A stretch of DNA of 43,131 bases from a virus, in IMG/VR virus record IMGVR_UViG_3300012964_000018, positions 1-43,131 of that record, one strand, 5' to 3'. A program made the position numbers and the translations under genes. The notes beneath the pieces were generated by a model. It was not told the DNA's origin and did no database searches. It saw nothing but the letters and a program-made list of their open reading frames with translations. Each line of letters opens with the position of its first letter. Position 1 is the stretch's first letter. Of the stretch, positions 2,284-34,215 are shown piece after piece.

Positions 2284-2676
2284 GTGCCTGAGTTCGAACC
2301 GATGCTCAAATCCTTTGTGGAGTTCGTTGGGATTTTCAAAGGTGAAGATCCTATGGTTTCTGTAGTTGCCGAGATCACGAAGGAAGGGTTCAAGTGGGAA
2401 ACGGTCCCGAATCCGAAATACTGCGTGCGCCAGAATTTTACAGTTGGTCACGCGGGTCCGGAAGACTTAGCACAGTTCGTTAATAAGGCCCTCCAGGAAA
2501 TTGCCATCCTGGGAGGCATGATGGTGCATAAGAAAGAGCCCCATCAGCAGTTTGATTTTAGCAATCAGGTCTTTGTTCCGATGCATATGTTTTCGAGAAT
2601 CGAGTGCATTGTAAAGAGGATCACTACTACTCCGGAGAATCCGGATGCGCTGGAGACGAAGGAGATGACAAATTGA
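2284..2676 (+). CDS. Hypothetical protein
   Basis: A 130-residue protein begins at GTG, one base after the previous stop, with GGAG eight bases upstream. The sequence is of mixed character with no clear membrane segment or catalytic motif. The central part (FTVGHAGPEDLAQFVN) does not match a family I know. The stop codon overlaps the TTG start of the ClpP-like gene, so the two are probably translationally coupled. Function unknown. Confidence 0.75.
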   Translation: MPEFEPMLKSFVEFVGIFKGEDPMVSVVAEITKEGFKWETVPNPKYCVRQNFTVGHAGPEDLAQFVNKALQEIAILGGMMVHKKEPHQQFDFSNQVFVPMHMFSRIECIVKRITTTPENPDALETKEMTN

Positions 2677-3260
2677 CGATTCCCATGAATCCATACCTTC
2701 GGAGCGAAGATGACGGCAGTCGGTTTATGATTTCTGGAGAGATAACCGCCGCCACCGCTTTTAATTTTATTAAGCATTACGACGGAGGCACGATTTTTCT
2801 AAGCTCGGTTGGTGGGGACATCGGCGCCACGTTGGCGATTTTTGACCACATTAAGTCGTTCGAGAACACCCGTATCGTGGCTACGGGCGTTAATCAGTCT
2901 GCGGCCGCGGTTCTTCTGCAGGCCGCCGACGTTCGCATCATGACTCGGAATGCGGTACTGCAGTATATCCCACCGCCGGAAAATCGGGACGTGGATCCGC
3001 AGCGTTGGTTTTTGCATTCAAATATCGTGAATCTCGTGCGCGAACGCACGGGGATGGCGCTGCCAGAGTCGTACGATCTGTTTGATGAGCAGATGATCAA
3101 TGCCGAGCGCGCACTGCAGCTGGGCCTGATCGATAAAATTGAAGGGAGAGAGGATGACTATGTCGACCCCAACGACCTCAGAAACTGGGAAGGTATTGGA
3201 CTTCCAGGAAGCGAAAGCTCGGTTGTTGAACCCGAACCGGAAATCCCCAGCGCCGAGTGA
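2673..3260 (+). CDS. ClpP-like serine protease homologue, catalytic His apparently replaced
   Basis: The 195-residue product (TTG start, GGAG eight bases upstream, start overlapping the previous stop) follows the ClpP fold. FLSSVGGDIGATLAIFDHI (residues 42-60) matches the ClpP SPGG handle region. GVNQSAAAVLL (72-82) puts Ser76 at the nucleophile position. AERALQLGLIDKI (144-156) matches the C-terminal ClpP signature, with Asp135 at the acid position. The segment that normally carries the catalytic His reads RNAVLQYIPPP (92-102), which places Tyr98 where His is expected. If the alignment is right, it is a pseudo-protease of ClpR type or a modified enzyme. Phage ClpP-like proteins are often prohead proteases, but this one is far from the capsid genes. 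A ClpA-type ATPase is encoded at 17751. An alternative ATG at 2685 has worse ribosome binding site spacing. Confidence 0.75.
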   Translation: MTIPMNPYLRSEDDGSRFMISGEITAATAFNFIKHYDGGTIFLSSVGGDIGATLAIFDHIKSFENTRIVATGVNQSAAAVLLQAADVRIMTRNAVLQYIPPPENRDVDPQRWFLHSNIVNLVRERTGMALPESYDLFDEQMINAERALQLGLIDKIEGREDDYVDPNDLRNWEGIGLPGSESSVVEPEPEIPSAE

Positions 3261-3486
3261 GGCGTTGTCGGGTGTCGTCGCACACTTCAAGTTCTCGCGC
3301 CTTCCGCGCGTTGAGCGCATTGCTCGGACTTTGGCCACGCTTTCCATTCAGTCTGATAACTGGGAGCCGTTTATTAGGTTAGCGGAGATGATGATCCCAT
3401 ATGTGGATTCAGACTTTACAACGCTTCCGAAGTGTGTTACTCTAGAAGAGGTCAATAATGCCGTTCAAGCCGATCAAGAGTCTTAA
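3154..3486 (+). CDS. Hypothetical protein overlapping the ClpP-like gene
   Basis: This 110-residue frame starts inside the end of the ClpP-like gene and shares 107 bases with it in another frame. A GGGAGAGAGG stretch at 3144-3153 serves either ATG 3154 or ATG 3160. The part beyond the overlap is clearly coding (RIARTLATLSIQSDNWEPFIRLAEMM) and looks helical. No family recognised. The long overlap makes the ClpP-like C-terminal tail and this N-terminus hard to separate. The real start may be either ATG. Confidence 0.65.
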   Translation: MTMSTPTTSETGKVLDFQEAKARLLNPNRKSPAPSEALSGVVAHFKFSRLPRVERIARTLATLSIQSDNWEPFIRLAEMMIPYVDSDFTTLPKCVTLEEVNNAVQADQES

Positions 3487-3760
3487 GGACGAAGAGCTTG
3501 TGGTTGATTTGATCAACCGTTATCGTCTTTTGGCTGCGTCAGACGACGCGTCGATAAAGCAGAAGCTCCATGCGCTTGCGCGAATTGAGTATCTGGCCGG
3601 TTTGGCTGGAGAGGATCCTGGAGAAGGATCCGCGGCTCTTCCGCCTCTGGAAGAGACAGAAGTGGCGGAAGAGGCATCGCCGGTACCGGAGCCGGTCTCG
3701 TCAGCTATTTTGCCGGCGATCGTGAAGGGCGTCGAGGGATCGAATTTCGATGAAATTTAG
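3458..3760 (+). CDS. Hypothetical protein, helical N-terminus and acidic Pro-rich tail
   Basis: A 100-residue protein starts at ATG 3458 behind GAAGAGG and overlaps the previous gene by 29 bases. Residues 1-55 look like two or three helices (SLKDEELVVDLINRYRLLAA, then SIKQKLHALARIEYLAGLAG). The rest is rich in Glu, Pro, Ala and Val and probably disordered. No known motif. It belongs to a run of small accessory genes before the exonuclease. Confidence 0.65.
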   Translation: MPFKPIKSLKDEELVVDLINRYRLLAASDDASIKQKLHALARIEYLAGLAGEDPGEGSAALPPLEETEVAEEASPVPEPVSSAILPAIVKGVEGSNFDEI

Positions 3761-3769
3761 GAGGGTCTG

Positions 3770-4111
3770 ATGGCCGTCGAGCATGCGCTTTTTGACGCGG
3801 GAGAAGGTCAATGGTCCGTGATCGCGGAGACTCCTGCGGGGACTATGGTGACTACATTTTCCGGGCCGGGGGCTAAACTGCGCGCGAACGCGTACGGGCT
3901 GTGGATGAATGGAAGGTTTCCCGTCCCGTTGCCTAAAGAGCTTTTCGTCACGGACGTCAAGGGACGCAAAATCAAATTGGTGCTTGACGGTGTTGAGTGG
4001 TCTTCTGATACGAAACGTGGTACTATTACAGCGCGTCCGAAAAACCCTATAGCGGAAGTGGATGTTTCGGGGAAACCGGAATCCGATGTTGTGATTGGAG
4101 AGAAACAATGA
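3770..4111 (+). CDS. Hypothetical protein
   Basis: A 113-residue protein follows a strong AGGAGG ribosome binding site. It looks mostly beta (VIAETPAGTMVTTFSG, KGRKIKLVLDGVEW) and has no Cys cluster or membrane segment. The ATG of the DnaQ-like exonuclease overlaps its stop by four bases (ATGA), so the two are probably co-translated. Function unknown. Confidence 0.7.
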   Translation: MAVEHALFDAGEGQWSVIAETPAGTMVTTFSGPGAKLRANAYGLWMNGRFPVPLPKELFVTDVKGRKIKLVLDGVEWSSDTKRGTITARPKNPIAEVDVSGKPESDVVIGEKQ

Positions 4112-4827
4112 TTTTGTTATCCGCGGACTTTGAGACCACGGGCCTGGACCCGTCGACTGATCGCATCATAGAGGTTGGTGCTGTTCTTTACTCCACGAAT
4201 ATGGATCAAGCGCTTGAGACCGCCGGCTTCCTCGTCAATCCCGAGATGCCTATTCCGACCGAGATCACGAAGCTGACCGGCATCAATAACGCCATGGTCA
4301 AGAAGTTCGGACTCGAGTCTAAGCACGCGTTTGAGAAGTATGCCGCGATGGTGGAAGTCGCGGACGCGGTTATTGGGCAGAATTTCTTGCGCTTCGATGC
4401 TCTCTTTGCCAACGCCTGGGCGGCGCGCGAGAAGCAAACGCTTCCGAGTCGCTTGATCATCGACACGCGTACGGATCTCCCGGGGGTGGAATCCAAGCAT
4501 CTCGGATATATGGCAGCCGATGCTGGATTCCTTAACCCTTTTCCTCACCGCGCAGTTTCAGATTGCATGACGGTCCTTAAGCTCGTCGCAATGCATAACA
4601 TCGACGATGTGGTGGCTCTTGCCAAAGAGCCCACGATTGTGTTACTATCTCAAGCGTCGATCGATGAGCGTCATTTGTGCAAGGCTCGGAAGTACCAATG
4701 GAATCCGGATTTCAAAGTCTGGTGGAAGGCTTTGAAGCAGTCGCAGGTTTCGAAAGAGCAGAACGAGGCGCCATTCGGGACGAGAATTTCGGACATCCCA
4801 GTTGAACGGTTGTGGCACAGTAGGTAA
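4108..4827 (+). CDS. DnaQ-like DEDD 3'-5' exonuclease with a C-terminal WWK tail
   Basis: The 239-residue protein has the three Exo motifs of the DEDD superfamily. Exo I is DFETTGLDP (Asp7, Glu9), Exo II is NFLRFD (Asn92, Asp97) and Exo III is HRAVSD (His147, Asp152). The Exo III His marks the DEDDh subgroup, as in DnaQ, ExoX and RNase T. Residues 175-210 form a small extra domain with CKARKYQWNPDFKVWWK, a Trp-rich module I have seen at the ends of other phage and ExoX-type exonucleases. It presumably degrades DNA 3'-5' for repair or recombination, since the phage polymerase carries its own proofreading domain. It is linked to the preceding gene by an ATGA overlap. Confidence 0.88.
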   Translation: MILLSADFETTGLDPSTDRIIEVGAVLYSTNMDQALETAGFLVNPEMPIPTEITKLTGINNAMVKKFGLESKHAFEKYAAMVEVADAVIGQNFLRFDALFANAWAAREKQTLPSRLIIDTRTDLPGVESKHLGYMAADAGFLNPFPHRAVSDCMTVLKLVAMHNIDDVVALAKEPTIVLLSQASIDERHLCKARKYQWNPDFKVWWKALKQSQVSKEQNEAPFGTRISDIPVERLWHSR

Positions 4828-4845
4828 ATCTCAAACGGAGGCAAC

Positions 4846-5385
4846 ATGCTTATCACGCAGAAAGTCTATGAAAAAGCCCCGACGGGCATCTATACCGCGG
4901 TGTTTGCGGATTACGTCGACCTGGGAATGAAGACGAATCCGTTCGCAAAGGGCAATCAGCCGAAAGAGCGTCCCCGCATTCTATTCACTTGGGTTCTGAA
5001 TGCGAAGGATGCAGAGGGCAATTACTATCGTGTCCAGCGGGAAGTTACGAAGAGTCTGCATGATAAGGCCGGCTTGCGGCAAGTTGTGCTTGACATGACG
5101 GGTGTGAACCCCGGTTCGGAGTTCGAGCTCGAGACTCTGATTGGTAAGTGCAACCTCGTTGCGGTGAAGAAGGGCGTGAGTCAGACAGGGAAGCCGAAGT
5201 CTACGATCGAGTCTTTCATGCCGGCGAAGGAAGTGTTCGCCGTCCCCGCGACCTTCGTTCGCGCGAAGGACCGCACCAACGATCAGGCCACGACTCAGAC
5301 TACTGCGGCGCAGACGGCTGCTCCTGCGGCTAGCCCAGCGGCCCAGGCGGCTCCGGTAGTGCAGGACGAAGACATCCCGTTCTAA
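4846..5385 (+). CDS. ssb: Single-stranded DNA-binding protein (phage OB-fold type)
   Basis: The 179-residue protein ends in DEDIPF, the acidic C-terminal tip typical of bacterial SSBs (DDDIPF) that docks replication partners. Before it lies an Ala/Thr/Pro/Gln-rich linker (about residues 135-172). The N-terminal 125 residues have a beta-rich pattern (GIYTAVFADYVDLGM, RPRILFTWVL, LIGKCNLVAV) found in a phage OB-fold ssDNA-binding family. The ATG follows GGAGG. The gene is followed at once by a strong terminator, so it ends the first operon and may be highly expressed. Confidence rests mainly on the tip and layout. Confidence 0.82.
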   Translation: MLITQKVYEKAPTGIYTAVFADYVDLGMKTNPFAKGNQPKERPRILFTWVLNAKDAEGNYYRVQREVTKSLHDKAGLRQVVLDMTGVNPGSEFELETLIGKCNLVAVKKGVSQTGKPKSTIESFMPAKEVFAVPATFVRAKDRTNDQATTQTTAAQTAAPAASPAAQAAPVVQDEDIPF

Positions 5386-5409
5386 GAGCGGGCTTTCGGT
5401 AAGCGATAA

Positions 5410-5440
5410 GAGAGGGGGCTTCGGCCCCCTCTCACTTTCA
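5410..5440 (+). terminator. Rho-independent terminator after the SSB gene
   Basis: A perfect 10-bp inverted repeat (GAGAGGGGGC at 5410-5419 and GCCCCCTCTC at 5424-5433) encloses a TTCG tetraloop and is followed by ACTTTC. The G/C-rich stem and UUCG loop are classic for intrinsic terminators, though the U-tract is short. It separates the nucleotide-metabolism operon from the replication block. Confidence 0.88.
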
Positions 5441-5453
5441 GAAAAGGATGCTC

Positions 5454-6248
5454 ATGCCGCGGAGAGTCACAACCGAAGAGTTTATAGAGCGGGCGAAAGC
5501 GGTCCACGGGGGCAGGTATGATTATTCGTCTACTGTGTATGTGAACGCTAACGCGAAAATAAAATATGTGTGCCCCGTTCACGGAGAGGTTGAACAGTGG
5601 CCTAAGGTTCATGTCCGCAACTCGGCCTCGAGAAAGTCTGCTGGGTGCCCTAGATGTATTCGCAGGCAAGGCGGACCCGTTCGTCAGCGGTCAGGTGAGA
5701 CGTGGGAGTTTCCGTGCGTTCATGGTGTTGTTACCTTGCCCGCTCGTGGGGTATCCAATGGTCAAGTTCGTTGGTCTCCGAGTTTGGAGAGATGGTATTG
5801 CAGGTCCTGCGATGCTTTAGTTCACAAGAAGAGTAGAGATGGATCGGGTAGGCAAGGCCTTCTGAGCCGCATGAAGCATATTGTCCGGAGTAGTAAGGAC
5901 AATGCTAAAAAGAGTGGATACGCTCCGATATCGGAGTCTCCGGAAGATTTACTGAGGATGTGGGCTTTGCAGGGCGGGGCGGATGCCATTACAGAGGAGC
6001 CTATTGATTTATTGGCGGCGGTTGCTCACCACGACCACGATTGCGGAAAGACTTTTGGGTTTGTTTCTTCGTGGGTGAATCTCGCGGAGGGACATCTTAG
6101 AAAGCTTTCGTATGAAGGTCGAGCGAAGATGTTTGCAAAGATGTTTCCTGAAGAAGTCAAACGGGCAACAGAGCTTTTGTCGGAGACGACGGTAAAGGGT
6201 GAAAATGACAAACGCCGGACAACATCCAGCGATTGCATTTCTGAATAG
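5454..6248 (+). CDS. Putative free-standing homing endonuclease (DUF723-like N-terminus, HNH/EndoVII-like C-terminus)
   Basis: The 264-residue protein opens with TTEEFIERAKAVHGGRYDYS and a CPVHGEVEQWP segment, the pattern of the DUF723-type DNA-binding repeats found in phage homing endonucleases. More Cys pairs follow (CPRC, then CRSC near residue 116). The C-terminal part contains AHHDHDCGKTFGF and VNLAEGHL, which resemble the beta-beta-alpha metal motif of HNH/endonuclease VII nucleases without its zinc Cys. The ATG at 5454 is chosen because AGGA (5445-5448) overlaps the in-frame ATG at 5448. The gene sits between the SSB terminator and the primase gene, and its last 44 bases overlap the primase start. 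Catalysis is inferred. Confidence 0.7.
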   Translation: MPRRVTTEEFIERAKAVHGGRYDYSSTVYVNANAKIKYVCPVHGEVEQWPKVHVRNSASRKSAGCPRCIRRQGGPVRQRSGETWEFPCVHGVVTLPARGVSNGQVRWSPSLERWYCRSCDALVHKKSRDGSGRQGLLSRMKHIVRSSKDNAKKSGYAPISESPEDLLRMWALQGGADAITEEPIDLLAAVAHHDHDCGKTFGFVSSWVNLAEGHLRKLSYEGRAKMFAKMFPEEVKRATELLSETTVKGENDKRRTTSSDCISE

Positions 6249-8373
6249 TCTCTTTTTGCCGGGGGACTTGATCTGCCTTCAGTTAATACACCAAAAGAGT
6301 CGAGGCACGGCCGTTCGGTTCCTGAAGGCCGAAGATGTAAACGATGATGTAATTCGACTTCTGCAAGAGAAGAACGCAGAGGGCTATAATATATATTTTT
6401 GCCCGAATGCATTTGTTTCGGGGGCCTCGCGCCGGAAGAAAGAATTTGTTGGAGAGATAAGAACAGCTTTCATTGAGATTGACAACGACGCGATCGTTTC
6501 TGTTGACAACATCGACGACTCGGTTTTTGTGGGCCAGGTTCCCGAGCCAGCTTTCATTACCGAATCTAGTCCCGGAAAGCGGCAGGTTTTTTGGAAGTTA
6601 CAGTCGGGCTTTACAACTTCTCAGCTCGAGGCATTAAATCGCTCTCTCCTTCTCCGCTTCGGGGGAGATCCTGCGTGTTCGGATGTTGTTCGTGTTCTTC
6701 GCTTGCCGAATTTTGAAAATTTGAAATACGATTCAAAACCCCTCTCAAAAATCCTCGTTGCAGGCGACAGCTCTCGCCACTCTCTGGAAGAGTTCAGCCT
6801 CCCGATCCAAGAAAATAAGACAGTCGTTAAGATCGAAGCCAAAGAAGAGGAACTGCGATCCATCGCCACTTTTCTTGAGAAGGCGTTAGACGAATCGGGT
6901 ATTGATTATGATGGGCCCAGAGTTTGGGGACAGACAGGATATTTGTGGGAGTTGGGAAGTTGTGTTTGGGCCGCAGACCATACTACTGGAGAGGGCGGCG
7001 CGTGCATTATACTTATGAAATCTGGGGCGATTTCATATTCTTGCCGTCATTCTAGCTGTATGAGGAATCACAGAGATTGGCTGCAGTTTCGGGAGCTGAT
7101 TGAGACTCGCGTCGGTCACAAGTTTGCGTTTGCGGAGAAGAAGGATTGGAGTTCGGGCGTTATCCTTGGTGATGGGCCGTACACCGATGTTAAGCCTCCG
7201 ACGATTTCGAAGGCCATAGGTCTTCGCGACGATATGTCAGATACTGTTCTTTCTGGTCGGCTGGGCGAGCTTTGTCAGACCCGCCTCATTGATCAGAAGC
7301 GCTTTCCTATCGCGTATGCTTGGCCCGCGTTGCTTGCGGCCGCGGGCGTGATGGTGCCTCCGGTTCCCGCGAGTCCCGATGTAGTGACCGCGGTAGACCC
7401 CATGACCAATTCGTTCACTGCTCTTGTTGGTCCCGTCCATAGTGGAAAATCACAAGCGATCAATTGGGCAAACGGAATCATCGGCCTGCCGCGTGAGATG
7501 TATTCGGAAGTCCGTGCCGGCTCCTCGGAGTCTTTGTTGCGCAAGCTGATGGGCATGAAGAAGAAGGGAACGCTCATGCGTTCTCTTTTGATTGACCTGG
7601 ATGAGTGGGCGCATCTCTTCGCTAAGGCCTCCATCGAGAGTTCATCTTTTGCGACGTTTCTCCAGACGGCGTTTTACAAGAATCACGTCAACGTTGTCCT
7701 GGGCGGGGGTTTTGAAGTCGATCTCATTTGCGCCCTCACGTTGATCGGCGGCATCGTCGAGGATGATTTCAGTTCATGCTTTGGAGCGAAGTCCATGGGG
7801 GGCTTGCACGATCGTTTTGTTTTCGGCCTCTCTCCCTCGGATTACAATTTCATGTATCAGCCGTTCGAAGGGAAGCCGGAAAAGCTTGAGCCTGTCATGG
7901 TCGCCATCGACAAAGACGTATGGGAGATGGTTAAGGTAATTCGAAGGGAGACGGGAGCCGGGCGCGAAGCTGAGCATGCGGTGCGCGCGGCGCATATTTG
8001 TGCATCGTATGACGGGCGTATAACTCTCCATGCCAAAGACTGTGAGGCTTCGGTTCGTGCTTTCGTTGCAGATCAGCTTCGGGTTCGTGAGATCTTGCGC
8101 CCCAATGAGGGCGTTACGAACGATGCGGCATGCGCGAACGAGATACTACTGTGGATGAAAAACAATGCTCCGAACGGTGAACTCGTGCCCGAGCGTCGTC
8201 TGCAGCACGGCATCCGCCGGCAGCTTTCAAAACTGGGTCCAGGCGTGTTTCGATCGTCGGTTACAAATCTCATGATATCTGGTATGCTTGTAGTTGGCGA
8301 TGATCCAACCGGCAAAGTGTGGGGCGGTCGGCGTCCGAAACTCTACCAGCTGTGCGTTGAGGAGAACTCTTGA
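6205..8373 (+). CDS. Bifunctional primase-helicase (AEP/RepB-like primase plus P-loop ATPase)
   Basis: The 722-residue protein has an N-terminal primase-like domain with archaeo-eukaryotic primase motifs: AFIEIDND (89-95), ESSPGKRQVFW (120-130) and CSDVVRVLRLPNF (158-170). A Cys/His cluster with SCRHSSCMRNHRDW follows near residues 280-300. The ATPase part has Walker A GPVHSGKS at 409-416 and Walker B LLIDLDEW near 461-468. A C-terminal winged-helix-like segment ends the protein. It should prime and unwind DNA at the phage fork. The ATG at 6205 follows AAAGGG; a GTG at 6199 is possible. Its start lies inside the upstream endonuclease gene and its stop overlaps the polymerase start, so expression is coupled on both sides. 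Confidence 0.82.
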   Translation: MTNAGQHPAIAFLNSLFLPGDLICLQLIHQKSRGTAVRFLKAEDVNDDVIRLLQEKNAEGYNIYFCPNAFVSGASRRKKEFVGEIRTAFIEIDNDAIVSVDNIDDSVFVGQVPEPAFITESSPGKRQVFWKLQSGFTTSQLEALNRSLLLRFGGDPACSDVVRVLRLPNFENLKYDSKPLSKILVAGDSSRHSLEEFSLPIQENKTVVKIEAKEEELRSIATFLEKALDESGIDYDGPRVWGQTGYLWELGSCVWAADHTTGEGGACIILMKSGAISYSCRHSSCMRNHRDWLQFRELIETRVGHKFAFAEKKDWSSGVILGDGPYTDVKPPTISKAIGLRDDMSDTVLSGRLGELCQTRLIDQKRFPIAYAWPALLAAAGVMVPPVPASPDVVTAVDPMTNSFTALVGPVHSGKSQAINWANGIIGLPREMYSEVRAGSSESLLRKLMGMKKKGTLMRSLLIDLDEWAHLFAKASIESSSFATFLQTAFYKNHVNVVLGGGFEVDLICALTLIGGIVEDDFSSCFGAKSMGGLHDRFVFGLSPSDYNFMYQPFEGKPEKLEPVMVAIDKDVWEMVKVIRRETGAGREAEHAVRAAHICASYDGRITLHAKDCEASVRAFVADQLRVREILRPNEGVTNDAACANEILLWMKNNAPNGELVPERRLQHGIRRQLSKLGPGVFRSSVTNLMISGMLVVGDDPTGKVWGGRRPKLYQLCVEENS

Positions 8374-10547
8374 CGAAGCTGCACATGGACTTTGAGTCCA
8401 GGTCGGCCCTCGATTTGAAATTGGTTGGGCTCGATAATTACTCTCGGCACCCAAGCACTCGAGTGCTTATGCTGGCGTGGGCTATCGATAAAAATCCAGT
8501 CCAGCGGCACGAGTGGCAATCAGAGACGAATAGGCCGTGTTTGGAAGATCTCCCTCCGGAGTTTCGGGAGGCGCTGAGAGATCCGCAGATTTTGAAATAC
8601 GCGTGGAACGCGGGCTTTGAGCGCACCATGTTTCAGACCCAGTTTGGTGTGTGGATTCCGTACGAGCAGTGGCGAGACCCCATGGTTTATGCACGGTATC
8701 TTTCTCTTCCGGGCGCCTTAGCGGATTTTCAAAAGAACTTAGGATTGCCGCTGTCCGCGGCAAAGATGTCGGAAGGGAAGCGTCTCATTAAACTGTTTTG
8801 CAAGCCTCTCAAAGAGCGCAAGAGAAAAAAGAAGGGGCAAGATGACGGCCTTCTGTTTGATATTTCTCCCCTATCTGGGGCGGTAGTGGAAGCGAAATTC
8901 AACAACTGGCAGACTCACCCAGACGACTGGAAAATTTTTGGAGAGTACTGCAGCCAAGACGTCGTGGCCGAACGGGATGCCGGCGAGTTTTGTGAAAAGT
9001 ACTTTCCGTTGCCCGAGACAGAATTGCGTGGCTGGTTCTTGGATCAAAAGATCAATCAAGCCGGTATGCCCGCGGACGATAAGTTCGCTGAGAACTCTGT
9101 GATTCTTGCGGAGCGTGCCAAGAATAATGCCAAGGAGGAAGCGAAGAAGCTTACTGGTCTCGATAATCCTAATTCTCGAGACAAGATGCTTGTGTGGTGC
9201 CAAGCTCGTGGGTACACATTCAAGTCGCTTCGGAAAGAGCCGGTATCGATTTTTCTTTCCGGCGAGAATGTGGATCCTACCCTTCGCGCGGCTCTTGCGC
9301 TCCGTGCGGAGTCCGCAAAAACGTCTTATACCAAGTTGAAGAAGATTCGTTCTGCAATCGCTCCCGACGGGCGGTTGCGGAACCAATTTTTGTTTATGGG
9401 GTCTGCTCGTGCCGGCCGGTGGTCCGGGCAGGACGTGCAGTTGCACAACATGGCGCGCCCCATCAAAGAGCTCGAAGAGCAGGAAGTCTTGGATCGGGTT
9501 CGAGACGCCATTTACAAGTTGGACTATCAGGGAATTAAGAACATCTATCCTGGCGTAATTACGGCGGTCACGTCTTGTATTCGATCGGACTTCGTTGCTC
9601 CGCCCGGCAAACGTCTGAACGTTTGCGATCTCAACGCCATTGAGACGCGTGTCGCAGCATGGTTTTGTGAGTGTGAGGCGCTGCTTAAAGTATTTTGCGA
9701 TGGGCGCGACCCGTATCTTGACTTCGCATCGCGCATGTACCAAATCCCGTACGAGGAGTTGTATAAGCGATACAAGGCCGGAGATCCTGAAGCGAAGAGG
9801 ATGCGCCAGATCGCGAAGCCCGCGGTGTTGGGTTGTGTGTACAGGCTGAGCGGCGGCGAACTTGTCCTGAATCGGTACAAAGATTTGGTAAAGGGTGGCC
9901 TGTGGGGCTATGCCGAAAACATGGGCGTGAAGATGGATCAGAAGACGGCCCACAAATCGGTTGCCGTTTTCCGAGAGGCCTACGAAGAAATTAAGTTTAT
10001 GTGGTACCATCTCGAAGACGCCGTCGCAAAAGTCCTCAAGCATGGCGGCACCGTTGAGTTGGGCCCGGGCGGCTGTGTTGTAGTTGGGAAGATCACGCGC
10101 CGGGGCAAGATGCCGATTTTGTATATCCAACTTCCTTCCGGTCGGCGCTTGCACTACATCGACGCCCATCTGGAGACGAGAGAGCGCAAGGGCAAGGACA
10201 AAGACGGCAAGTCGACTACGTACACCAAGGAAGGCATGGTGTACAAGGGCATCAATCAGATCACGAAGCAGTGGTCGGACATCGAGACGAACGGTGGCAA
10301 ACTTCTCGAAAATATTGTTCAAGCTATGGCGCGCGATGTCCTTTTGCATTCGATGTTTTTGGCTGACGATTTTGGCATGAGAATCGTGGGTCATGTACAC
10401 GACGAGGTCATAACACTCAGTGATGATGATCCGCTTGAGTCGGGTTTGGAAACTCTTAAGTGGTGTATGTCGCAACCGCCGGCCTACATGCCGGGATTTG
10501 TCTTGACAGCGGAAGGGTACGAGGCGTACTATTACCGTAAAGGATGA
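8370..10547 (+). CDS. Family A DNA polymerase with 3'-5' exonuclease domain
   Basis: The 725-residue protein starts at TTG overlapping the previous stop, with GAGGAG upstream. The proofreading domain shows DFE near residue 7, NAGFE near 82 and the YCSQD exo III motif near 193. Polymerase motif A is CDLNAIETRVAAW, motif B is RQIAKPAVLGCVYR and motif C is GHVHDEV. Residue 487, equivalent to Phe762 of E. coli Pol I, is Leu. There is no 5'-3' exonuclease domain, as is usual for phage replicases. With the primase-helicase and SSB it forms a replisome core. A 574-codon open frame on the other strand is a shadow. Confidence 0.95.
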   Translation: MTKLHMDFESRSALDLKLVGLDNYSRHPSTRVLMLAWAIDKNPVQRHEWQSETNRPCLEDLPPEFREALRDPQILKYAWNAGFERTMFQTQFGVWIPYEQWRDPMVYARYLSLPGALADFQKNLGLPLSAAKMSEGKRLIKLFCKPLKERKRKKKGQDDGLLFDISPLSGAVVEAKFNNWQTHPDDWKIFGEYCSQDVVAERDAGEFCEKYFPLPETELRGWFLDQKINQAGMPADDKFAENSVILAERAKNNAKEEAKKLTGLDNPNSRDKMLVWCQARGYTFKSLRKEPVSIFLSGENVDPTLRAALALRAESAKTSYTKLKKIRSAIAPDGRLRNQFLFMGSARAGRWSGQDVQLHNMARPIKELEEQEVLDRVRDAIYKLDYQGIKNIYPGVITAVTSCIRSDFVAPPGKRLNVCDLNAIETRVAAWFCECEALLKVFCDGRDPYLDFASRMYQIPYEELYKRYKAGDPEAKRMRQIAKPAVLGCVYRLSGGELVLNRYKDLVKGGLWGYAENMGVKMDQKTAHKSVAVFREAYEEIKFMWYHLEDAVAKVLKHGGTVELGPGGCVVVGKITRRGKMPILYIQLPSGRRLHYIDAHLETRERKGKDKDGKSTTYTKEGMVYKGINQITKQWSDIETNGGKLLENIVQAMARDVLLHSMFLADDFGMRIVGHVHDEVITLSDDDPLESGLETLKWCMSQPPAYMPGFVLTAEGYEAYYYRKG
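10503..10532 (+). promoter_or_regulatory. Possible sigma70-type promoter in the end of the polymerase gene
   Basis: TTGACA at 10503-10508 is followed, after 18 bases, by TACTAT at 10527-10532 (10 of 12 consensus positions). Transcription would start about 12-14 bases before the next ATG at 10552. That leaves a very short leader, so it may instead serve genes further downstream. It lies within coding sequence and could be chance. Confidence 0.35.
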
Positions 10548-10551
10548 CACG

Positions 10552-11466
10552 ATGAACATTTCAACATTGGCAGCGAAGAAGTTAGAGAACTTCACGGAAG
10601 AAGAGAAGGTCGCCCATTACAGCGAAGTTTGCGAAGTTCTGGGATTGGATCCTCGCAAGCGGCCGTTCGAGTACCTTTACGTCGACAATGAGTACGAGGG
10701 CCGCAATCTCATTCTCTACGTCACAAAGGCTGGCTCGAATCAGCTTCGAGCCAACATGGGCATCGATATTGAGCCGGTTGCTATTACGATCCAGGCCGGC
10801 GTCGCGATTGCAGTTGCGAATGCCGCGGACAAGACTGGCCGTACTGACTCCTGTGTGGGCGCGGTTACGATTGAGGGCCTGACTGGCAAGTCGCTCGCCA
10901 ATGCCGTCATGTCCGCGGAGACCAAGGCCAAGCGTCGTGTGACGATTTCAATTTCGGGCATTGGTTTGCTTGACGAGACCGAAGTTCAGGACTTGTCCGG
11001 GACGGTTACGAAGGTTGTGCCGGACGCGCCACAGGTTTCGGCGCCGCAACTGACCGCTCCGGCCACAGCGGCGGCCACAACCCCCACGGAAGTTATCTCT
11101 TCTATCGATCCGATGATCATCGAGGCTGGTCGCCAGATGGCTCAGCGTGGGCACGAAACGTTCATTGCTCCATTGTTAGCGGCGGCTGCCGCGGAAGCGG
11201 ATCGCAAGCCTACAACCGAAGAGATAACGGAATTTCGGAAGCGGTACGAGAAGTTGGTTATTGACCTGCAGATGAACGGCGTGATCGCTGCCCCGGGTCA
11301 AACCGCAGCTAAGCGTATTCGAACGTGGTTTCTTCAAAAGGCGGGATGCGACGGAAGAGATTTGACTTTTGGAAAGTGGCGGGATACACTTGGTTTTATG
11401 GAGCAGGGAGTGGCGTCCGAGGGCATCAAAGGCCTCGTCGTCCGAGTTCTCAAGGAGACAGAATAA
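10552..11466 (+). CDS. Candidate single-strand annealing/recombination protein
   Basis: The 304-residue protein has an N-terminal domain of about 145 residues. It ends with SAETKAKRRVTISISGIGLL, a pattern (TKAKRR followed by GIGLLDE) that recalls phage RecT/Rad52-type annealing proteins and related DNA-binding proteins. A Pro/Ala/Thr linker near residues 155-180 joins it to a helical C-terminal domain. The gene lies between the polymerase and a UvrD-like helicase, with a RecB-like nuclease further downstream, as expected of a phage recombination module. I do not recognise the family with certainty; it could be another DNA-binding replication factor. Confidence 0.5.
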   Translation: MNISTLAAKKLENFTEEEKVAHYSEVCEVLGLDPRKRPFEYLYVDNEYEGRNLILYVTKAGSNQLRANMGIDIEPVAITIQAGVAIAVANAADKTGRTDSCVGAVTIEGLTGKSLANAVMSAETKAKRRVTISISGIGLLDETEVQDLSGTVTKVVPDAPQVSAPQLTAPATAAATTPTEVISSIDPMIIEAGRQMAQRGHETFIAPLLAAAAAEADRKPTTEEITEFRKRYEKLVIDLQMNGVIAAPGQTAAKRIRTWFLQKAGCDGRDLTFGKWRDTLGFMEQGVASEGIKGLVVRVLKETE

Positions 11467-16620: not shown

Positions 16621-17187
16621 ATGAGCAAACAACTAAAATACATATTGATGTTTTGGCTGTTGCTTGCGGGCGCGAAGGGCGTTTTTGGATTGTGGTCGCC
16701 TCCTTCCCCCTCCTTGTCGATGAGGGCGTTTACTCCCGATGACTTTGACTCGTTCAGAGCGCAAGAACGCAGGCATTTGCAGGAAGTGCGCGAAGTTGGT
16801 CGAGCTAAGGCCATATACGATCGGTACGGATGTGACGAAAGCTTGGCGGTACCTACCGCAGCGTTTGCCGGTCGTGTACATGTACCCGCAGCCGTCGTGG
16901 CTGCGGATGTGGTGGTTGAGTCGAGTTGTCGAGAGGGGGTTGTTTCGTCTGCTGGGGCAGTTGGTCTCATGCAGGTTATGCCCTCAATACATCATGTCGA
17001 TCGACGGTCTTTGTTTAATCGCGAGACGAATCTTCGGGTCGGTACGCAGATTCTTTCAGGGTATGCGCGCGCTCACGGGGGATTGCGAGAAGGCCTCCGA
17101 CACTATTACGGCGTCGTCGAAGGCTCAACAGAATCCGACGAGTACGCTGATCGAGTTCTTTCTGTAGCATACGGGAGACAAAGATGA
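16621..17187 (+). CDS. Secreted lytic transglycosylase (SLT domain)
   Basis: The 188-residue protein has a signal sequence or N-terminal anchor (YILMFWLLLAGAKGVFG, residues 7-23) after a Lys. Its SLT-like domain carries the catalytic Glu100 (VVESSC), AGAVGLMQVMP at 111-121 and NLRVGTQILSGYARAHGG from 137. These are the Slt/MltE family hallmarks. It would cleave peptidoglycan from the periplasmic side. Its role could be genome entry, lysis support or tail assembly, and the signal sequence argues for action during lysis or maturation rather than as a virion enzyme. The ribosome binding site is weak. Confidence 0.85.
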   Translation: MSKQLKYILMFWLLLAGAKGVFGLWSPPSPSLSMRAFTPDDFDSFRAQERRHLQEVREVGRAKAIYDRYGCDESLAVPTAAFAGRVHVPAAVVAADVVVESSCREGVVSSAGAVGLMQVMPSIHHVDRRSLFNRETNLRVGTQILSGYARAHGGLREGLRHYYGVVEGSTESDEYADRVLSVAYGRQR

Positions 17188-17507
17188 TTCGAATTAATTT
17201 GGTGACGCCCGAGCAAGTCAAACTTTTGGAGGCTACCGCTAAGTTCTATCGTTCACAGCGCAACCGGTCGTTCTCGGAGCGGCATCCTGAATTGGGCAAG
17301 ATGATTAATTGTTCAGTGTGCGATCGTCGCCATCGATCGTCGATTGAGTGTGTTCCGATTTATGCTGTCGGGAAGTATGATCCGGAGAAGAAAGTTTTGA
17401 TTGCGCCGAAGACGCGCAAGGGGGTTATGGGTGCGGCGGCGTTCGCGAAGAAGCGCATTCGACCCCACCGGAACGCTATGACGCTCCAGGTCCTTGCGCG
17501 CGAATGA
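17184..17507 (+). CDS. Hypothetical basic protein with CxxC site
   Basis: A 107-residue basic protein overlaps the transglycosylase stop by four bases (ATGA). A CSVCDRRH motif near residue 43, with another Cys at 56, may bind zinc. The C-terminus is rich in Arg and Lys. No family recognised; nucleic-acid binding would fit the charge but is not shown. Confidence 0.6.
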   Translation: MIRINLVTPEQVKLLEATAKFYRSQRNRSFSERHPELGKMINCSVCDRRHRSSIECVPIYAVGKYDPEKKVLIAPKTRKGVMGAAAFAKKRIRPHRNAMTLQVLARE

Positions 17508-17751
17508 GTTGTTTGCTGCCGCTCTCCTTCGAACCCGGCCAGATCTCCCTCCCGCCATAGAACGAGTTGAGTATACTCCTCCGGAGCATCTACCTTCGTG
17601 GCAGCCGGATATGGCGCGGTACACGAGGCAAGCATTTCAGGAAATTCGCGGGAAGCGCGAGGCCCATCGGCGGATGAAGAGGCACCAGCAGCAAGTCGCT
17701 CGCGGTATCAATTTTGGGTTGATTGATCCAGGTATTCGTCCGGCGGCATAG
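17494..17751 (+). CDS. Small basic hypothetical protein
   Basis: An 85-residue frame starts at TTG 17494 within the previous gene (14 shared bases). An in-frame TTG a few codons on is also possible. It is rich in Arg, with a helical KREAHRRMKRHQQQ segment. Its stop overlaps the GTG of the AAA+ gene by one base. Function unknown. Confidence 0.5.
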   Translation: MRANELFAAALLRTRPDLPPAIERVEYTPPEHLPSWQPDMARYTRQAFQEIRGKREAHRRMKRHQQQVARGINFGLIDPGIRPAA

Positions 17752-19169
17752 TGAAATTTTTAAGCGAGGCCCTGATGAAGCTTAAGTGGAGCAAGAAGAC
17801 GCCGCCGGCGATTCGACTTGATGATGGTAAGATGACTGCAGAGGCCGCGGCGCTCGAGGCCGGTCTTAGGAAGAGGGTGATTGATCAGGATCGCGCCATC
17901 GCTCAATTTGTGCGGGCGTATGAGTCTTGGCAGACGGGTTTGAGTGATCCGGATAAGCCGCTTGCTAATCTTCTATTTTTGGGACCGACCGGCGTCGGCA
18001 AGACGCATTTGGTTGAGGCTTTCTGTGATCAGATGTGGGGAGCGCACGACATGCTTCTCAAGGTGGATTGCTCTGAATATCAGCACGGCCACGAAACAGC
18101 CAAGCTGATCGGATCTCCTCCGGGGTATGTTGGATACAACGAGGGGTCTGCGCGCCTCTCTCAGGATGCACTGCAGAAACACTGGAAGAGTACCAAGGGT
18201 CCGAAAATTTCTGTTATCCTTTTTGACGAAATCGAAAAGGCACACCATAACCTTTTCCAGTTGCTTTTGGGGTTGTTGGACAGAGGATTCATTACCCTCG
18301 GCAATGGCGTGAAGGTTGACATGCGGGCGTGCGTGGTGGTCATGACGTCTAACCTGGGCGCGAAGGATGTGAGCAAGCATTTAAATGAGGGGGGCATTGG
18401 TTTCTTGCATTCAGGGACCAAGGATTCTACGGATCAGAAAATATACGAGACGTCCATGAAGGAAGTGAAGAAGCACTTTCAGCCGGAGTTCATTAATCGC
18501 GTCGACCGCATTGTTGTGTTTCGAGCACTTTCGGATAATGGCCTTCGAGAAATCCTCGACATCGAGCTCGGCAAAGTTCAAGATCGCATTCTTTCTACGG
18601 GACGGTTCACTCTTTTGGATGTGTCTCGGCGCGCGAAAGATTTTTTATTGGCGGAGGGAACTAGCGCGGAGTACGGCGCTCGAGAGTTACGGCGGGCCAT
18701 CGAGAGATTTTTGGTCTCGCGCGTGACGCGCCTCATTGCTACAGATCAAGTGAAGTCGGGCGATATGGTCCTTGCGGACTATGATCCCGAAGAAAAGAAG
18801 ATGATGTTTCATTTACAGGCCGGCGTGGTGGACATTCCAGAACTAAAGTTTTCTGTGACGGATCTAGCAAAGATTCCGGTCAGCGATGGGAAAGCGGCGC
18901 CGGATTCTCTTGGGCCGCGGCTTTTAGGAAACGGAGCCGCTCCGGCTCGCAAAATGACGCCTTCGCCCCCTCGTAATGGTAAATGCGAGAAGTGTGGAGA
19001 GCCTTGGACAATTTTCCACTACTGCGCACTCCGTCGCCCAAAGCTTTACGGGGCCACTATGGATGAATGGAAGTCAGGGGATCCACTTTTGGGTTGCGAT
19101 TGCGCAATATGTTCGAGTGTTCGATGCGATTTAGAAAAAGGAGGAAAGGTATGGCGCCCAAGATCGTAG
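17751..19169 (+). CDS. Single-ring ClpA-type AAA+ unfoldase with IGF loop and Cys-rich tail
   Basis: The 472-residue protein matches the second AAA+ domain of ClpA/ClpB. It has GPTGVGKT (78-85, Walker A), the pore loop GSPPGYVGY (121-129), VILFDE (155-160, Walker B), MTSN (sensor 1), FINRVD with Arg250 as Arg finger, and YGAR (sensor 2, 308-311). Between sensor 1 and the Arg finger it has GGIGFLHSG. The IGF at 216-218 lies where ClpA and ClpX carry the IGL/IGF loop that docks ClpP; ClpB lacks this. The N-domain and first AAA+ ring of ClpA are absent. The last 65 residues are Cys-rich (CEKCGEPW, CDCAIC), probably zinc-binding and perhaps for substrates. GTG 17751 overlaps the previous stop; ATG 17775 is an alternative. 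Confidence 0.9.
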   Translation: MKFLSEALMKLKWSKKTPPAIRLDDGKMTAEAAALEAGLRKRVIDQDRAIAQFVRAYESWQTGLSDPDKPLANLLFLGPTGVGKTHLVEAFCDQMWGAHDMLLKVDCSEYQHGHETAKLIGSPPGYVGYNEGSARLSQDALQKHWKSTKGPKISVILFDEIEKAHHNLFQLLLGLLDRGFITLGNGVKVDMRACVVVMTSNLGAKDVSKHLNEGGIGFLHSGTKDSTDQKIYETSMKEVKKHFQPEFINRVDRIVVFRALSDNGLREILDIELGKVQDRILSTGRFTLLDVSRRAKDFLLAEGTSAEYGARELRRAIERFLVSRVTRLIATDQVKSGDMVLADYDPEEKKMMFHLQAGVVDIPELKFSVTDLAKIPVSDGKAAPDSLGPRLLGNGAAPARKMTPSPPRNGKCEKCGEPWTIFHYCALRRPKLYGATMDEWKSGDPLLGCDCAICSSVRCDLEKGGKVWRPRS

Positions 19170-19990: not shown

Positions 19991-20185
19991 GTGACTAAGC
20001 AGCCTCGGTACGTCTACACCTGTTTTAAGTGTGGTGGATCTGTCACCAAGCCGCCTCTGATAGCTCTTAAGGGCAAGGAGGACGCCAAGGGCGCCCACCT
20101 GGGGCTCGGCGGGTGGCGGTGTCCCATTGATGGGCCAACGAAAGTAAAACGCCGGCTGAACAAGCCGAAAGAGGAGCAGTCATGA
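19991..20185 (+). CDS. Small basic protein with CxxC site
   Basis: A 64-residue frame starts at GTG behind GGGGAGG with good spacing; the ATG two bases earlier is followed at once by a stop. It has CFKCGG near residue 11 and a single CP further on, plus a basic C-terminus (KVKRRLNKPKEEQ). A zinc ribbon is possible. It is the first gene after repeat copy 2, and its stop overlaps the next small gene. Confidence 0.65.
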   Translation: MTKQPRYVYTCFKCGGSVTKPPLIALKGKEDAKGAHLGLGGWRCPIDGPTKVKRRLNKPKEEQS

Positions 20186-25006: not shown

Positions 25007-27121
25007 ATGGCTTTAGTGCCGAAAGACGGCTCCACTTCTGGAGAGATTGATATCTCGCAAGTCAAATCACCCCAGGAGATCGCTAAGGAAGCGGCCCTGC
25101 AGTTGGTGGTTCAAGACGCCTATCGAACCAAGTCGTGGATCGAGTCTCGGTATTTCAACATCCGGTGGGTCGAGTGCGACATGTTGTATCAGTCTCCTCC
25201 GTCGATCAAGACGTGGGAGGGGACCGGTGTGCCTCGCGCCAACATCTCGAAATTTACTGTCGCGACGCACATCAATGCGATCAATTCGAAACTGATCGGC
25301 GGTCTCTTCTACGAAGAGCCTCCGTTCCAGCTGCGGCCGGACGCGGGAACTACGGCTGATACGGCGCGCGCGATTTCGACCATCCAGGCAGATCAGCTGG
25401 ATCTCATGGGCTTCAAGCAGGAAGTGAAGTACGGCATGTTTTCGTGCTTGCTGAACGGCACGGGCATTTGGAAGTATGGCTGGAAGGAATACTACGAATC
25501 CTACACCAACTACAAGCCCGTCGCCGAACCGATCAAGTCCACGGATCCGGTCACTGGGGCAGAAACCGAAATAGATACAGCTGAATCCGATCTGTTTGAA
25601 ATAACCGAGGATGAGCGTTTGATTGCGCGGCCGTTCTTTGAGGCCTGCGACATTCGTTCCGTCCTGGTGGACCCGGGCTGTCGCGTTCCGGACATTCGAA
25701 AAGCCAAGTTCGTCATTCACGAATTTTATGTGACGTACGACGACCTCATGAAGATGAAGGATGAGGTCTATCAAGACGCCGCCGGGAAACTTCAGCACCG
25801 GTACGATCTTCCCACAGAGGAAGAGATCCGATCGTGGTTCGATACACCTAGCGCAGCGGCCAACATCGCTCCGATCGCGCAGAACCTGAACGCGGCCAAC
25901 AACGCGAATTACATTCAGCACGCGGCGCCGCAGTATGAAAAGACGACTCAGGATCCTCTCCAACAGCCGCTCGAGATGCTGGAGCGCTGGGACAACGACA
26001 AAGTCATTACGGTTCTGCAGCAGCGGAAAGTTATTCGGAACGAGCCCAATCCGTTCCGGAAGATTCCTTTCTACTCTGTTTGCTGGTGGATGATTCAAGA
26101 CTGCTTCTGGGGCATCGGGCTCGGCACTGCGCTGGGCGGCGAGCAACGGTTGCAGCAGGGCTTCATCAATGCCGTCGCGGACATCGGTACATTGGCGGCC
26201 AATCAGCCAATCATCCGCAACCGCGGCGCAAACATCAATACGCAACAGATGAGAGCTCGTCTGGGTGGGTTCATAGATGTCGATGGCGACGTCATGAAGG
26301 CTCTCCATCCGATGGACCTCCCCAAGATCCAGAGCGAGATGTTCGGAATTGTTTCGGCGTCGGAAGCTCGTACGGAAGATAGTTCGGGCGCCAGTAATCA
26401 GTTCACGATCGGCTCGTCCACCAAGCGTGGCCAGGGCGGTGCGCTCCGCACAGCTACGGGCGCCGGCGGCATGATGCAGGCGGCCATAGATCGCATCGGC
26501 GGACTGGCCGAAGATTTCGTGCGTCAAGTCTATCAGCCGTTCTTGTGGCAGATGTACGAAATGAACAAGAAGTTCTTGCCGGCTACGGTTTATCGCCGAA
26601 TACTGGGCGACAAGCTTGGTCCCACGTACCGTGCGTCTATCAAGAATTTCATGCTGTCGGGCGTCGAGTCCTTCGACGTACTGGCCGGCAGCCACCTTGC
26701 TACCAAGCAGCAGATGGCGCAGTCGTTGCCCCTGCTTATGCAGTACTTCATGAACCCCGCGTTGGCCGAGCAGGTTGCGGATATCAACGGGGAGTTCATC
26801 GAGTTCAAGGAATTGCTGCACATGCTGACGGATTCCGGCGGCTGGGGTGGCGGGCAGTTCTATTCGATCTTCAAGCCTCTGACGGACGAGATGAAGAAGG
26901 CTCGTCAAGCCAAAATGAATCCGATCCAGCAGAAGACCGCGGCTCAGGCGCAGCTGAACGAGCAGAAGTCCAAGCTACGTCAGGTTGAGTTGCAACAGGA
27001 ATGGACTCAGCGCGCGGCCGGAGATGTGATTCGACATTCGATTGAAGCCGCCAGTGGCCCCTTGGCCATCACCGGCACGCCCGGAGGGCCGGGTTTTGGT
27101 GGTGGTGAGCTAGCAGGATAA
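25007..27121 (+). CDS. Portal protein
   Basis: The 704-residue product begins at ATG 25007 behind AGGAGGGG; the frame is open further upstream but has no ribosome binding site there. It shows features of large portal proteins: YGMFSCLLNGTGIWKYGWKE, a CDIRSVLVDPGCR clip-like block, FYSVCWWMIQDCFWGIGLG and a long helical C-terminus with KQQMAQSLPLLMQYF. Position after TerL and before the scaffold and capsid genes supports it. Its size is like that of P22-type portals. The portal forms the dodecameric channel for DNA packaging. Confidence 0.85.
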   Translation: MALVPKDGSTSGEIDISQVKSPQEIAKEAALQLVVQDAYRTKSWIESRYFNIRWVECDMLYQSPPSIKTWEGTGVPRANISKFTVATHINAINSKLIGGLFYEEPPFQLRPDAGTTADTARAISTIQADQLDLMGFKQEVKYGMFSCLLNGTGIWKYGWKEYYESYTNYKPVAEPIKSTDPVTGAETEIDTAESDLFEITEDERLIARPFFEACDIRSVLVDPGCRVPDIRKAKFVIHEFYVTYDDLMKMKDEVYQDAAGKLQHRYDLPTEEEIRSWFDTPSAAANIAPIAQNLNAANNANYIQHAAPQYEKTTQDPLQQPLEMLERWDNDKVITVLQQRKVIRNEPNPFRKIPFYSVCWWMIQDCFWGIGLGTALGGEQRLQQGFINAVADIGTLAANQPIIRNRGANINTQQMRARLGGFIDVDGDVMKALHPMDLPKIQSEMFGIVSASEARTEDSSGASNQFTIGSSTKRGQGGALRTATGAGGMMQAAIDRIGGLAEDFVRQVYQPFLWQMYEMNKKFLPATVYRRILGDKLGPTYRASIKNFMLSGVESFDVLAGSHLATKQQMAQSLPLLMQYFMNPALAEQVADINGEFIEFKELLHMLTDSGGWGGGQFYSIFKPLTDEMKKARQAKMNPIQQKTAAQAQLNEQKSKLRQVELQQEWTQRAAGDVIRHSIEAASGPLAITGTPGGPGFGGGELAG

Positions 27122-31128: not shown

Positions 31129-31139
31129 CCGGTAGATGA

Positions 31140-31163
31140 GGGGAGGAGCCTCCACTCCTCCCC
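31140..31163 (+). other. Strong hairpin in the leader of the HNH gene
   Basis: GGGGAGGAG (31140-31148) and CTCCTCCCC (31155-31163) form a 9-bp stem with loop CCTCCA. No T-run follows, so it is not a standard terminator for the capsid transcript. Since transcription from the promoter at 31100 would start about five bases before it, it may be a protective 5' stem or an attenuator. The 5' arm also contains an SD-like GGAGG that would be hidden. Confidence 0.6.
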
Positions 31164-31189
31164 AAATCGATCTCATGGAGGTGAGATGC

Positions 31190-31813
31190 ATGTACGTGAT
31201 TAAAAATATAGACCTAAAAGGTCAAAAATTCGAAAGGCTTTTAGTTTTAGAAGCCGCCGGAAAAGATCACAGAGGCAATCGACTTTGGAAATGCCTTTGC
31301 GACTGCGGTAACTTCGCTGAAGTCATTACTTGGCGGCTAAGAAGTAAAACAACTAGAAGCTGTGGTTGCATTCAACTAGAAAGCGCGAGAAACATAAATC
31401 TCTCGCCTCCCGGAGAAGCCGCTTGCGTTCAACTTTTCCATCAGTATCGTTACGAGGCAAGACAACGCAAATTAGTTTTTGAACTGACAAAAGAACAGTT
31501 TCGAAAACTAACCAGTAAAAATTGTTTTCATTGTGGGCGTGCCCCGGCCCAATCAAAAACTTCTAGAAACACAAATGGATCTTACATCCACAATGGTATA
31601 GATCGTATGAATAGCAACTTAGGGTATACTTTTGAAAATTGTGTGCCCTGTTGCAAGACTTGCAACTTCATGAAATTAGACATGACCCGCGAAGCCTTCA
31701 TTCAAGCGTGTCGATCAGTAGTAGAACATCTGGAAAAGCAAAATGGCCCGTCTAACCTACGCAACACGAAAGAAAATGCCCAAGAGCACGTTTGCCGTTC
31801 CTTCGAAGCGTGA
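31190..31813 (+). CDS. HNH homing endonuclease (paralogue 1 of 3)
   Basis: The 207-residue product starts at ATG 31190, eight bases after GGAGG; other in-frame ATGs upstream lack spacing. The N-terminal part has DLKGQKFERLLVLE, then WKCLCDCGN and TRSCGC, a Cys-rich DNA-binding module. The nuclease core has CFHCGRAP, HNGIDRMNSNLGY and NCVPCCKTCNFMK. The same order occurs in the proteins at 34216 and 36479. It is A/T-rich compared with the capsid gene and has its own promoter. Its last 71 bases overlap the start of the next gene in another frame. Confidence 0.82.
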   Translation: MYVIKNIDLKGQKFERLLVLEAAGKDHRGNRLWKCLCDCGNFAEVITWRLRSKTTRSCGCIQLESARNINLSPPGEAACVQLFHQYRYEARQRKLVFELTKEQFRKLTSKNCFHCGRAPAQSKTSRNTNGSYIHNGIDRMNSNLGYTFENCVPCCKTCNFMKLDMTREAFIQACRSVVEHLEKQNGPSNLRNTKENAQEHVCRSFEA

Positions 31814-33536: not shown

Positions 33537-34136
33537 ATGATCGAAGATCACAAGGACGGAATTGAGCAGTTGACCGGAGGCCCTAAGCCCACGGTTAGAG
33601 TGAAGAGTCAAGCCGAAATCGACGCGGCGGTGTCTGCCGTGCGGTTGGAGAAAGAAGAGCTTGAGCTCGAAATGCAGAAGCTTACTCTCCAGAAGCTGAG
33701 ACACGATATTGCCGTCATCAATCAGCACAACGAGCAGGCGGCTATGTCGCGAGAGGCCGTACAGGACTCGCTCAAGCACGGAGACGCAACAGAGTTCGAA
33801 AAGGAATCGCTCTGCACGCACATGAAGGGCGGCAACGCCGATCAAATGTTGCGTGGCGCGCCGGCGCAAGGCAATGATCAGAACAACTTCGCTATGTTCC
33901 AGCACACGCTGACGACTGGCGTCACCTTCCGGTTGTGCTCGCGCTGTGGCAAGACGTGGTTCCCGGGAGACCCGGATTACAAGTGGGCGATGACTCGCTC
34001 TACTAAAAACTCACCCTCCACCGGCTGTCCCTCTCCGGGGCTTATTCGCTTTCCGGAGAAAGTACAACGTAAGTCCTACATACCTCATACTGGCGCCAAT
34101 GATTCTCGTCATTCGGCCGGTATGGATTCACAGTAA
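33537..34136 (+). CDS. Coiled-coil protein with a zinc-ribbon-like C-terminus
   Basis: The 199-residue protein starts behind GAGGGGAAA. Residues 25-75 form a likely coiled coil (EKEELELEMQKLTLQKLRHD). Near residue 135 it has CSRCGKTWFPGDPDYKW, half of a zinc ribbon, with single Cys residues elsewhere (CTHM, GCP) as possible partners. It ends just before a terminator. Role in virion or assembly is unknown. Confidence 0.65.
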   Translation: MIEDHKDGIEQLTGGPKPTVRVKSQAEIDAAVSAVRLEKEELELEMQKLTLQKLRHDIAVINQHNEQAAMSREAVQDSLKHGDATEFEKESLCTHMKGGNADQMLRGAPAQGNDQNNFAMFQHTLTTGVTFRLCSRCGKTWFPGDPDYKWAMTRSTKNSPSTGCPSPGLIRFPEKVQRKSYIPHTGANDSRHSAGMDSQ

Positions 34137-34164
34137 AAATCCTCGCGGCCTAATTAACTGCGAG

Positions 34165-34200
34165 TGGGGGCGAGCCCTAATCTCGCCCCCAAACCTTTCT
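34165..34200 (+). terminator. Rho-independent terminator
   Basis: TGGGGGCGAG (34165-34174) and CTCGCCCCCA (34182-34191) form a perfect 10-bp stem with a 7-base loop CCCTAAT, followed by AACCTTTCTATT. The T-run is interrupted, but the stem is very stable. It separates gene 33537 from the HNH gene at 34216. Confidence 0.8.
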
Positions 34201-34215
34201 ATTAGGGAGAAAGAT

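Follow-up and report, generated by a model that had tools for sequence, protein, structure and literature searches.

Phages use or redirect host Clp proteases, and phage-encoded Clp proteins are themselves already known. The locus considered here lies in a 43,131-nucleotide stretch of DNA from a soil-type phage (positions 1 to 43,131 of the IMG/VR record IMGVR_UViG_3300012964_000018, hereafter the window), and raises the question of whether a Clp-type ATPase with one ring might still dock on a ClpP ring, and whether that ClpP would be supplied by the host or by the phage. An answer bears on how a phage might control proteolysis in the cell it infects, and this compact system, which unites a single ring, a retained docking tripeptide and a ClpP-like gene conserved alongside, offers a direct test of phage control of protein degradation.

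Domain architecture of the ATPase

The preliminary description placed the gene at 17751-19169, and this frame is indeed real and open over 472 codons; the start, however, is likelier to be the ATG at 17775 than the GTG at 17751 (which would yield 472 residues), because a purine-rich AGCGAGG lies just 5' to the ATG and this position aligns with the starts of the orthologues in the phage loci L001, L086 and L089. The resulting protein of 464 residues (17775..19169, + strand) is identified by its ORF, Pfam matches, alignment and predicted model as a single-ring, D2-type Clp/Hsp100 AAA+ ATPase. Its residues 69-340 are covered by AAA_2 (PF07724, 132 bits against a cut-off of 27) followed by ClpB_D2-small (PF10431, 53.7 bits against 21.9), and the protein has neither a first ring nor an N-domain, with only ~20-40 residues preceding the AAA+ domain. 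The earlier reading of the protein as the equivalent of the second ring alone thus holds, as does its claim of an intact catalytic apparatus, each of the named motifs being recovered once and unimpaired in a search of the protein. These comprise, all on the + strand, the Walker A motif GPTGVGKT (17982..18005, residues 78-85), the pore-1 loop GYVG (18123..18134, residues 125-128), the Walker B motif VILFDE (18213..18230, residues 155-160), the sensor 1 TSN (18345..18353, residues 199-201), the Arg finger FINR (18489..18500, residues 247-250) and the sensor 2 GAR (18675..18683, residues 309-311). Alignment and motif searches further revealed a C-terminal zinc-ribbon-like motif of the form CxxCG..W....H.C (18984..19025, + strand), which is kept in the syntenic phage ATPases, is absent from the aligned chromosomal relatives, and might bind zinc.

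The predicted model of the ATPase (mean pLDDT 76.7, exceeding 90 in much of the core and low-confidence in the tail beyond ~residue 350) matches the D2 rings of ClpC, ClpB and ClpA with Z scores of 28-33 over ~300 residues in a comparison against PDB structures, with ClpC, in several cases from ClpC-ClpP complexes, occupying the top rows. The D2 rings of ClpC and ClpA (e.g. Staphylococcus aureus ClpC and Escherichia coli ClpA), which supply these best structural matches, share the domain order, motifs and docking-loop position of the phage protein, which in contrast to them lacks the N-domain, the first ring and, with respect to ClpC, the middle domain. The D2 ring of ClpB/Hsp104 is similar in fold and in sequence score (259 bits for the ClpB profile TIGR03346, against a cut-off of 1232), but ClpB is two-ringed and lacks an xGF loop. 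ClpX likewise combines a single ring, an IGF loop and a zinc-binding module; nevertheless, it belongs to another AAA+ subfamily and its zinc domain is N-terminal rather than C-terminal like the motif of the phage ATPase. The ClpX equivalog profile scored 32 bits against a cut-off of 359, and the ClpA profile TIGR02639 230 bits against 993, with only profile positions 446-730 matched.

In a phylogenetic tree the window ATPase, its phage orthologues and chromosomal proteins from Acidobacteriota form one D2-only clade with 100/100 support, and all two-ring proteins fall outside it; rooted at its midpoint, this tree does not give the direction between phage and chromosomal members. The profile cut-offs, the missing first ring and the position in the tree together reject an assignment to ClpA proper or ClpB proper. 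Hence the label "ClpA-like" used in the preliminary description is only approximate: the protein sits in a distinct D2-only clade together with Acidobacteriota chromosomal proteins.

The putative docking loop and its conservation across relatives

The putative ClpP-docking loop GGIGFLHSG (18390..18416, residues 214-222, + strand), identified by alignment, column conservation and motif search, contains the tripeptide IGF at 18396-18404. In the family alignment this tripeptide lies between sensor 1 and the Arg finger, in register with the IGL/IGF loop of ClpA, as had been proposed for it. At the same position in the reference alignment Acinetobacter ClpA has SIGF and S. aureus ClpC has AGF, whereas the ClpB proteins of Acinetobacter and Thermus thermophilus show a deletion, in agreement with the earlier remark that ClpB lacks this feature. 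The IGF/IGL loops of ClpX and ClpA are flexible and seat in clefts between ClpP subunits (PMC9035409, PMC7707817), while ClpB does not partner a protease (PMC5540906).

Across 88 single-ring proteins of the family the Gly of the xGF loop is invariant (88/88), the Phe is present in 86/88 and the residue preceding them is hydrophobic in nearly all, while the flanking columns are highly variable, with entropies of 2-3.7 bits. The first residue of the tripeptide varies among I, M and Y in the syntenic phages and is F in the phage locus L194. In the reading frames of this window, a 51-residue stretch should contain an xGF tripeptide 0.04 times by chance; this expectation, and the near-invariance of the two residues amid variable columns, rule out a chance tripeptide. 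Such conservation is the mark expected of a short functional peptide embedded in an otherwise free loop. The predicted model gives this loop low confidence and shows it as the least ordered part of the core, between two confident helices, which fits a flexible docking loop but is no proof of one. The placement and conservation of the IGF tripeptide point to a loop of the type found in ClpP-dependent unfoldases, and from them we infer with good reason that the protein docks on ClpP.

Syntenic orthologues of the ATPase were recovered in six further phage loci (L001, L083, L084, L085, L086 and L089), and later searches added single-ring members from the phage contigs G007, G008, L192 and L193. 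The gene persists across phages whose TerL, PolA and UvrD proteins are only 41-54% identical. A scan of bacterial genomes recovered more than 560 relatives, the best 80 of which all come from Acidobacteriota and are nearly all single-ring ORFs with a [L/M/I]GF motif; by a strict motif pattern the single-ring family is present in at least 31 of 297 Acidobacteriota genomes. These chromosomal proteins (~37-46% alignment identity) share with the phage ATPases the single D2-type ring, an EFQ/EYQ-HSHEIAKLIGSPPGY block and the xGF loop, but differ from them in lacking the C-terminal zinc-ribbon motif, the phage context and a nearby clpP. Across 80 chromosomal loci there was no conserved operon partner and no clpP gene within ~7 kb, the commonest neighbor being an SDR-type dehydrogenase family (recognized by eye) in 20 of the 80; three genomes bearing such relatives all gave strong matches to canonical ClpP. 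A search of the open-access literature for single-ring Clp proteins from Acidobacteria or from phages found nothing relevant, and the acidobacterial family thus appears undescribed in open-access papers; its existence shows a lone D2 ring bearing a docking loop to be a stable design. In one Acidobacteriota contig (L136) a two-ring Clp gene with an LGF loop (2899-5568) occurs near a single-ring gene (6611-7789) on the same strand.

The nearest relatives of the window ATPase are single-ring, but the majority of viral relatives in IMG/VR have two rings, a length of ~670-1200 residues and an xGF or VGF loop, and a phage unfoldase with an xGF loop is therefore not rare. These two-ring ClpA/ClpC-type proteins (phrog_4871; 34-42% identity) resemble the window ATPase in their loop and in being phage-encoded, but have sequence ahead of the D2 ring and belong to another clade. 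In the viral contigs L045, L053, L057, L060 and L068 a two-ring ClpA-type gene is followed by a canonical ClpP a few kb downstream, forming apparent phage-encoded ClpAP pairs. Seven Clp-family members, among them ClpA, ClpX and a proteolytic subunit, are encoded by the jumbo phage Atu_ph07 (PMC6102473), ClpP or ClpS is present in jumbo phages (PMC7824862), and the phage P26059A carries ClpP (PMC5964084). The present system departs from these known phage Clp components in having a single, D2-only ring, a zinc-ribbon-like tail and a short ClpP-like gene conserved alongside it.

The ClpP-like protein of the same phages

The candidate phage-encoded partner, which the preliminary description did not name, is a ClpP-family protein of 195 residues (2673..3260, + strand), recognized by Pfam, profile comparison and a predicted model, with a probable TTG start that is preceded by a strong AAGGAG and overlaps the stop of the previous gene. 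It matches PF00574 with 40 bits against a cut-off of 20.2, its counterparts also lying above the cut-off, so that the match extends to all four contigs bearing the gene; hhalign against the ClpP profile gives a probability of 97.8, and in a low-confidence model built from two sequences (pLDDT 57.7) the top 50 PDB rows are all ClpP, with Z scores up to 13.8. Among PHROGs it comes closest to head maturation proteases (phrog_94 at 1.5e-10), and no annotated phage bearing this gene was found in the phage collection.

The equivalent of the ClpP nucleophile, Ser76 in GVNQSAAA (2898..2900, + strand by alignment), is kept in all four proteins (window, G004, G007 and G008). The catalytic His is kept in the other three but is replaced in the window by Ile99 (2967..2969, + strand, likewise by alignment), with no His between residues 60 and 114. 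The Asp position, assigned by its spacing to the conserved block that follows, is occupied by Asp in the window, G007 and G008, while G004 has a Gly there and an invariant Asp three residues on. The full Ser-His-Asp triad is accordingly found in G007 and G008, and the window copy, lacking the His, looks catalytically impaired. The N-terminal axial loop seems to be absent, because the sequences begin only at about the first core strand, and most of the aromatic and hydrophobic residues that we take to line the docking cleft of E. coli ClpP (Y60, Y62, M92, F112, L114 and L189; assigned by eye) do not appear to be kept in our alignment.

Both the ATPase and the ClpP-like gene are present in 4/4 of the long contigs of this lineage, all probably incomplete records; the other lineage contigs begin too near the ATPase to show the ClpP position. 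The ClpP-like gene lies 13-15 kb upstream of the ATPase (~15 kb in the window) and ~22 kb ahead of the portal gene, in an early replication region beside thyX, nucleotide kinase and exonuclease genes rather than by capsid genes. The ATPase gene is flanked by nuclease and endolysin genes, upstream of those for TerL and the portal. A divergent phage, G009 (the L194 phage, 82.7 kb), has a single-ring ATPase with no ClpP match. A search with the portal protein found no relative in 396 Acidobacteriota genomes, and no prophage or host assignment was obtained from it.

Possible mechanism and alternative explanations

We consider it probable that the phage ATPase is a minimal unfoldase consisting of a single, D2-only ring, which is driven by ATP and docks on a ring of ClpP. 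Six copies would assemble into one ATP-driven ring and thread a protein through the GYVG pore, while flexible [I/M/Y]GF loops on the lower face of the ring would insert into the apical clefts of ClpP, which would then degrade the threaded protein. As the N-domain and first ring are missing, the choice of substrates would have to fall to the pore or, in the phage members, to the zinc-ribbon-like tail. The chromosomal relatives keep the loop with no nearby clpP, and three of the genomes bearing them hold strong matches to canonical ClpP, which suggests general ClpP as the natural partner. Since the chromosomal relatives would use canonical ClpP and the window ClpP-like protein looks impaired, host ClpP is the likeliest partner in the window phage, with the ClpP-like protein as a second candidate, perhaps as a mixed or accessory subunit.

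The suggestion in the preliminary description that the unfoldase might work with a phage subunit is strengthened by the ClpP-family protein encoded in the window phage and in three of its relatives, though the window version lacks the catalytic His. Taken further, the ATPase could dock on this protein instead of host ClpP, forming the phage's own two-part protease; we regard this, the main rival, as unlikely. In its favor are the presence of both genes in every contig long enough to show both loci, the ClpP affinity of the protein by Pfam, hhalign and structural comparison, the retention of Ser in all four copies and His in three, and the placement of the gene away from the capsid genes, together with parallels in the viral contigs with ClpP close downstream of a two-ring ClpA and in the several Clp proteins of Atu_ph07 (PMC6102473). 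Set against it are the Ile in the window copy and the Gly in G004, the apparent loss of the axial loop and of most cleft residues, the low confidence of the model, the divergent ATPase of G009 with no ClpP match, and the possibility that shared ancestry within a single lineage explains the co-occurrence. Such a pair has a stronger case in G007 and G008, whose copies retain the whole triad. Less likely again is a version in which the lineage possesses a Clp machine independent of host Clp, made of the ring with its zinc-ribbon tail and a ClpP-like protein devoid of the axial loop, the window copy, with its His lost, then forming a non-cutting ring or a subunit mixed into host ClpP. Docking on host ClpP and a phage-internal pair are compatible, docking on a ClpP being common to both.

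That the ATPase acts independently of any protease, as an unfoldase or remodeler in virion assembly or the disassembly of host complexes, its xGF loop having no role or contacting another phage protein, appears improbable. Its gene neighborhood, with nuclease and endolysin genes on either side and TerL and the portal further downstream, and the translocation or virion-assembly roles suggested for phage ClpA/ClpX (PMC7824862), would suit such a function; but a loop of no function would be expected to drift, as it has in ClpB, and the strong constraint on the GF amid varying loop positions argues against this. It is quite improbable that the ClpP-like gene encodes a head-maturation protease to which the ATPase is unrelated. 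Its PHROG matches and the reading of phage ClpP homologs as prohead proteases (PMC5964084) favor that assignment, but its early-region location, far ahead of the portal, speaks against it, as does the missing His of the window copy.

Several other features of these loci were observed. Small Cys-rich, zinc-ribbon-like proteins encoded at 17184-17507 and 19991-20185 of the window are syntenic around the ATPase in related phages, and in G007 a MazG-like gene (recognized by eye; L183:3050-3490) lies between the ATPase and endolysin genes, where the window has none. Long antisense ORFs at 8871-10595 and 25067-26908, both on the - strand and opposite the DNA polymerase and portal genes, are probably codon-usage shadows. 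Three window ORFs (31136-31813, 34099-34770 and 36479-37057) look like structural-region paralogs, because all three match the same ORFs in L084, L086 and L089.
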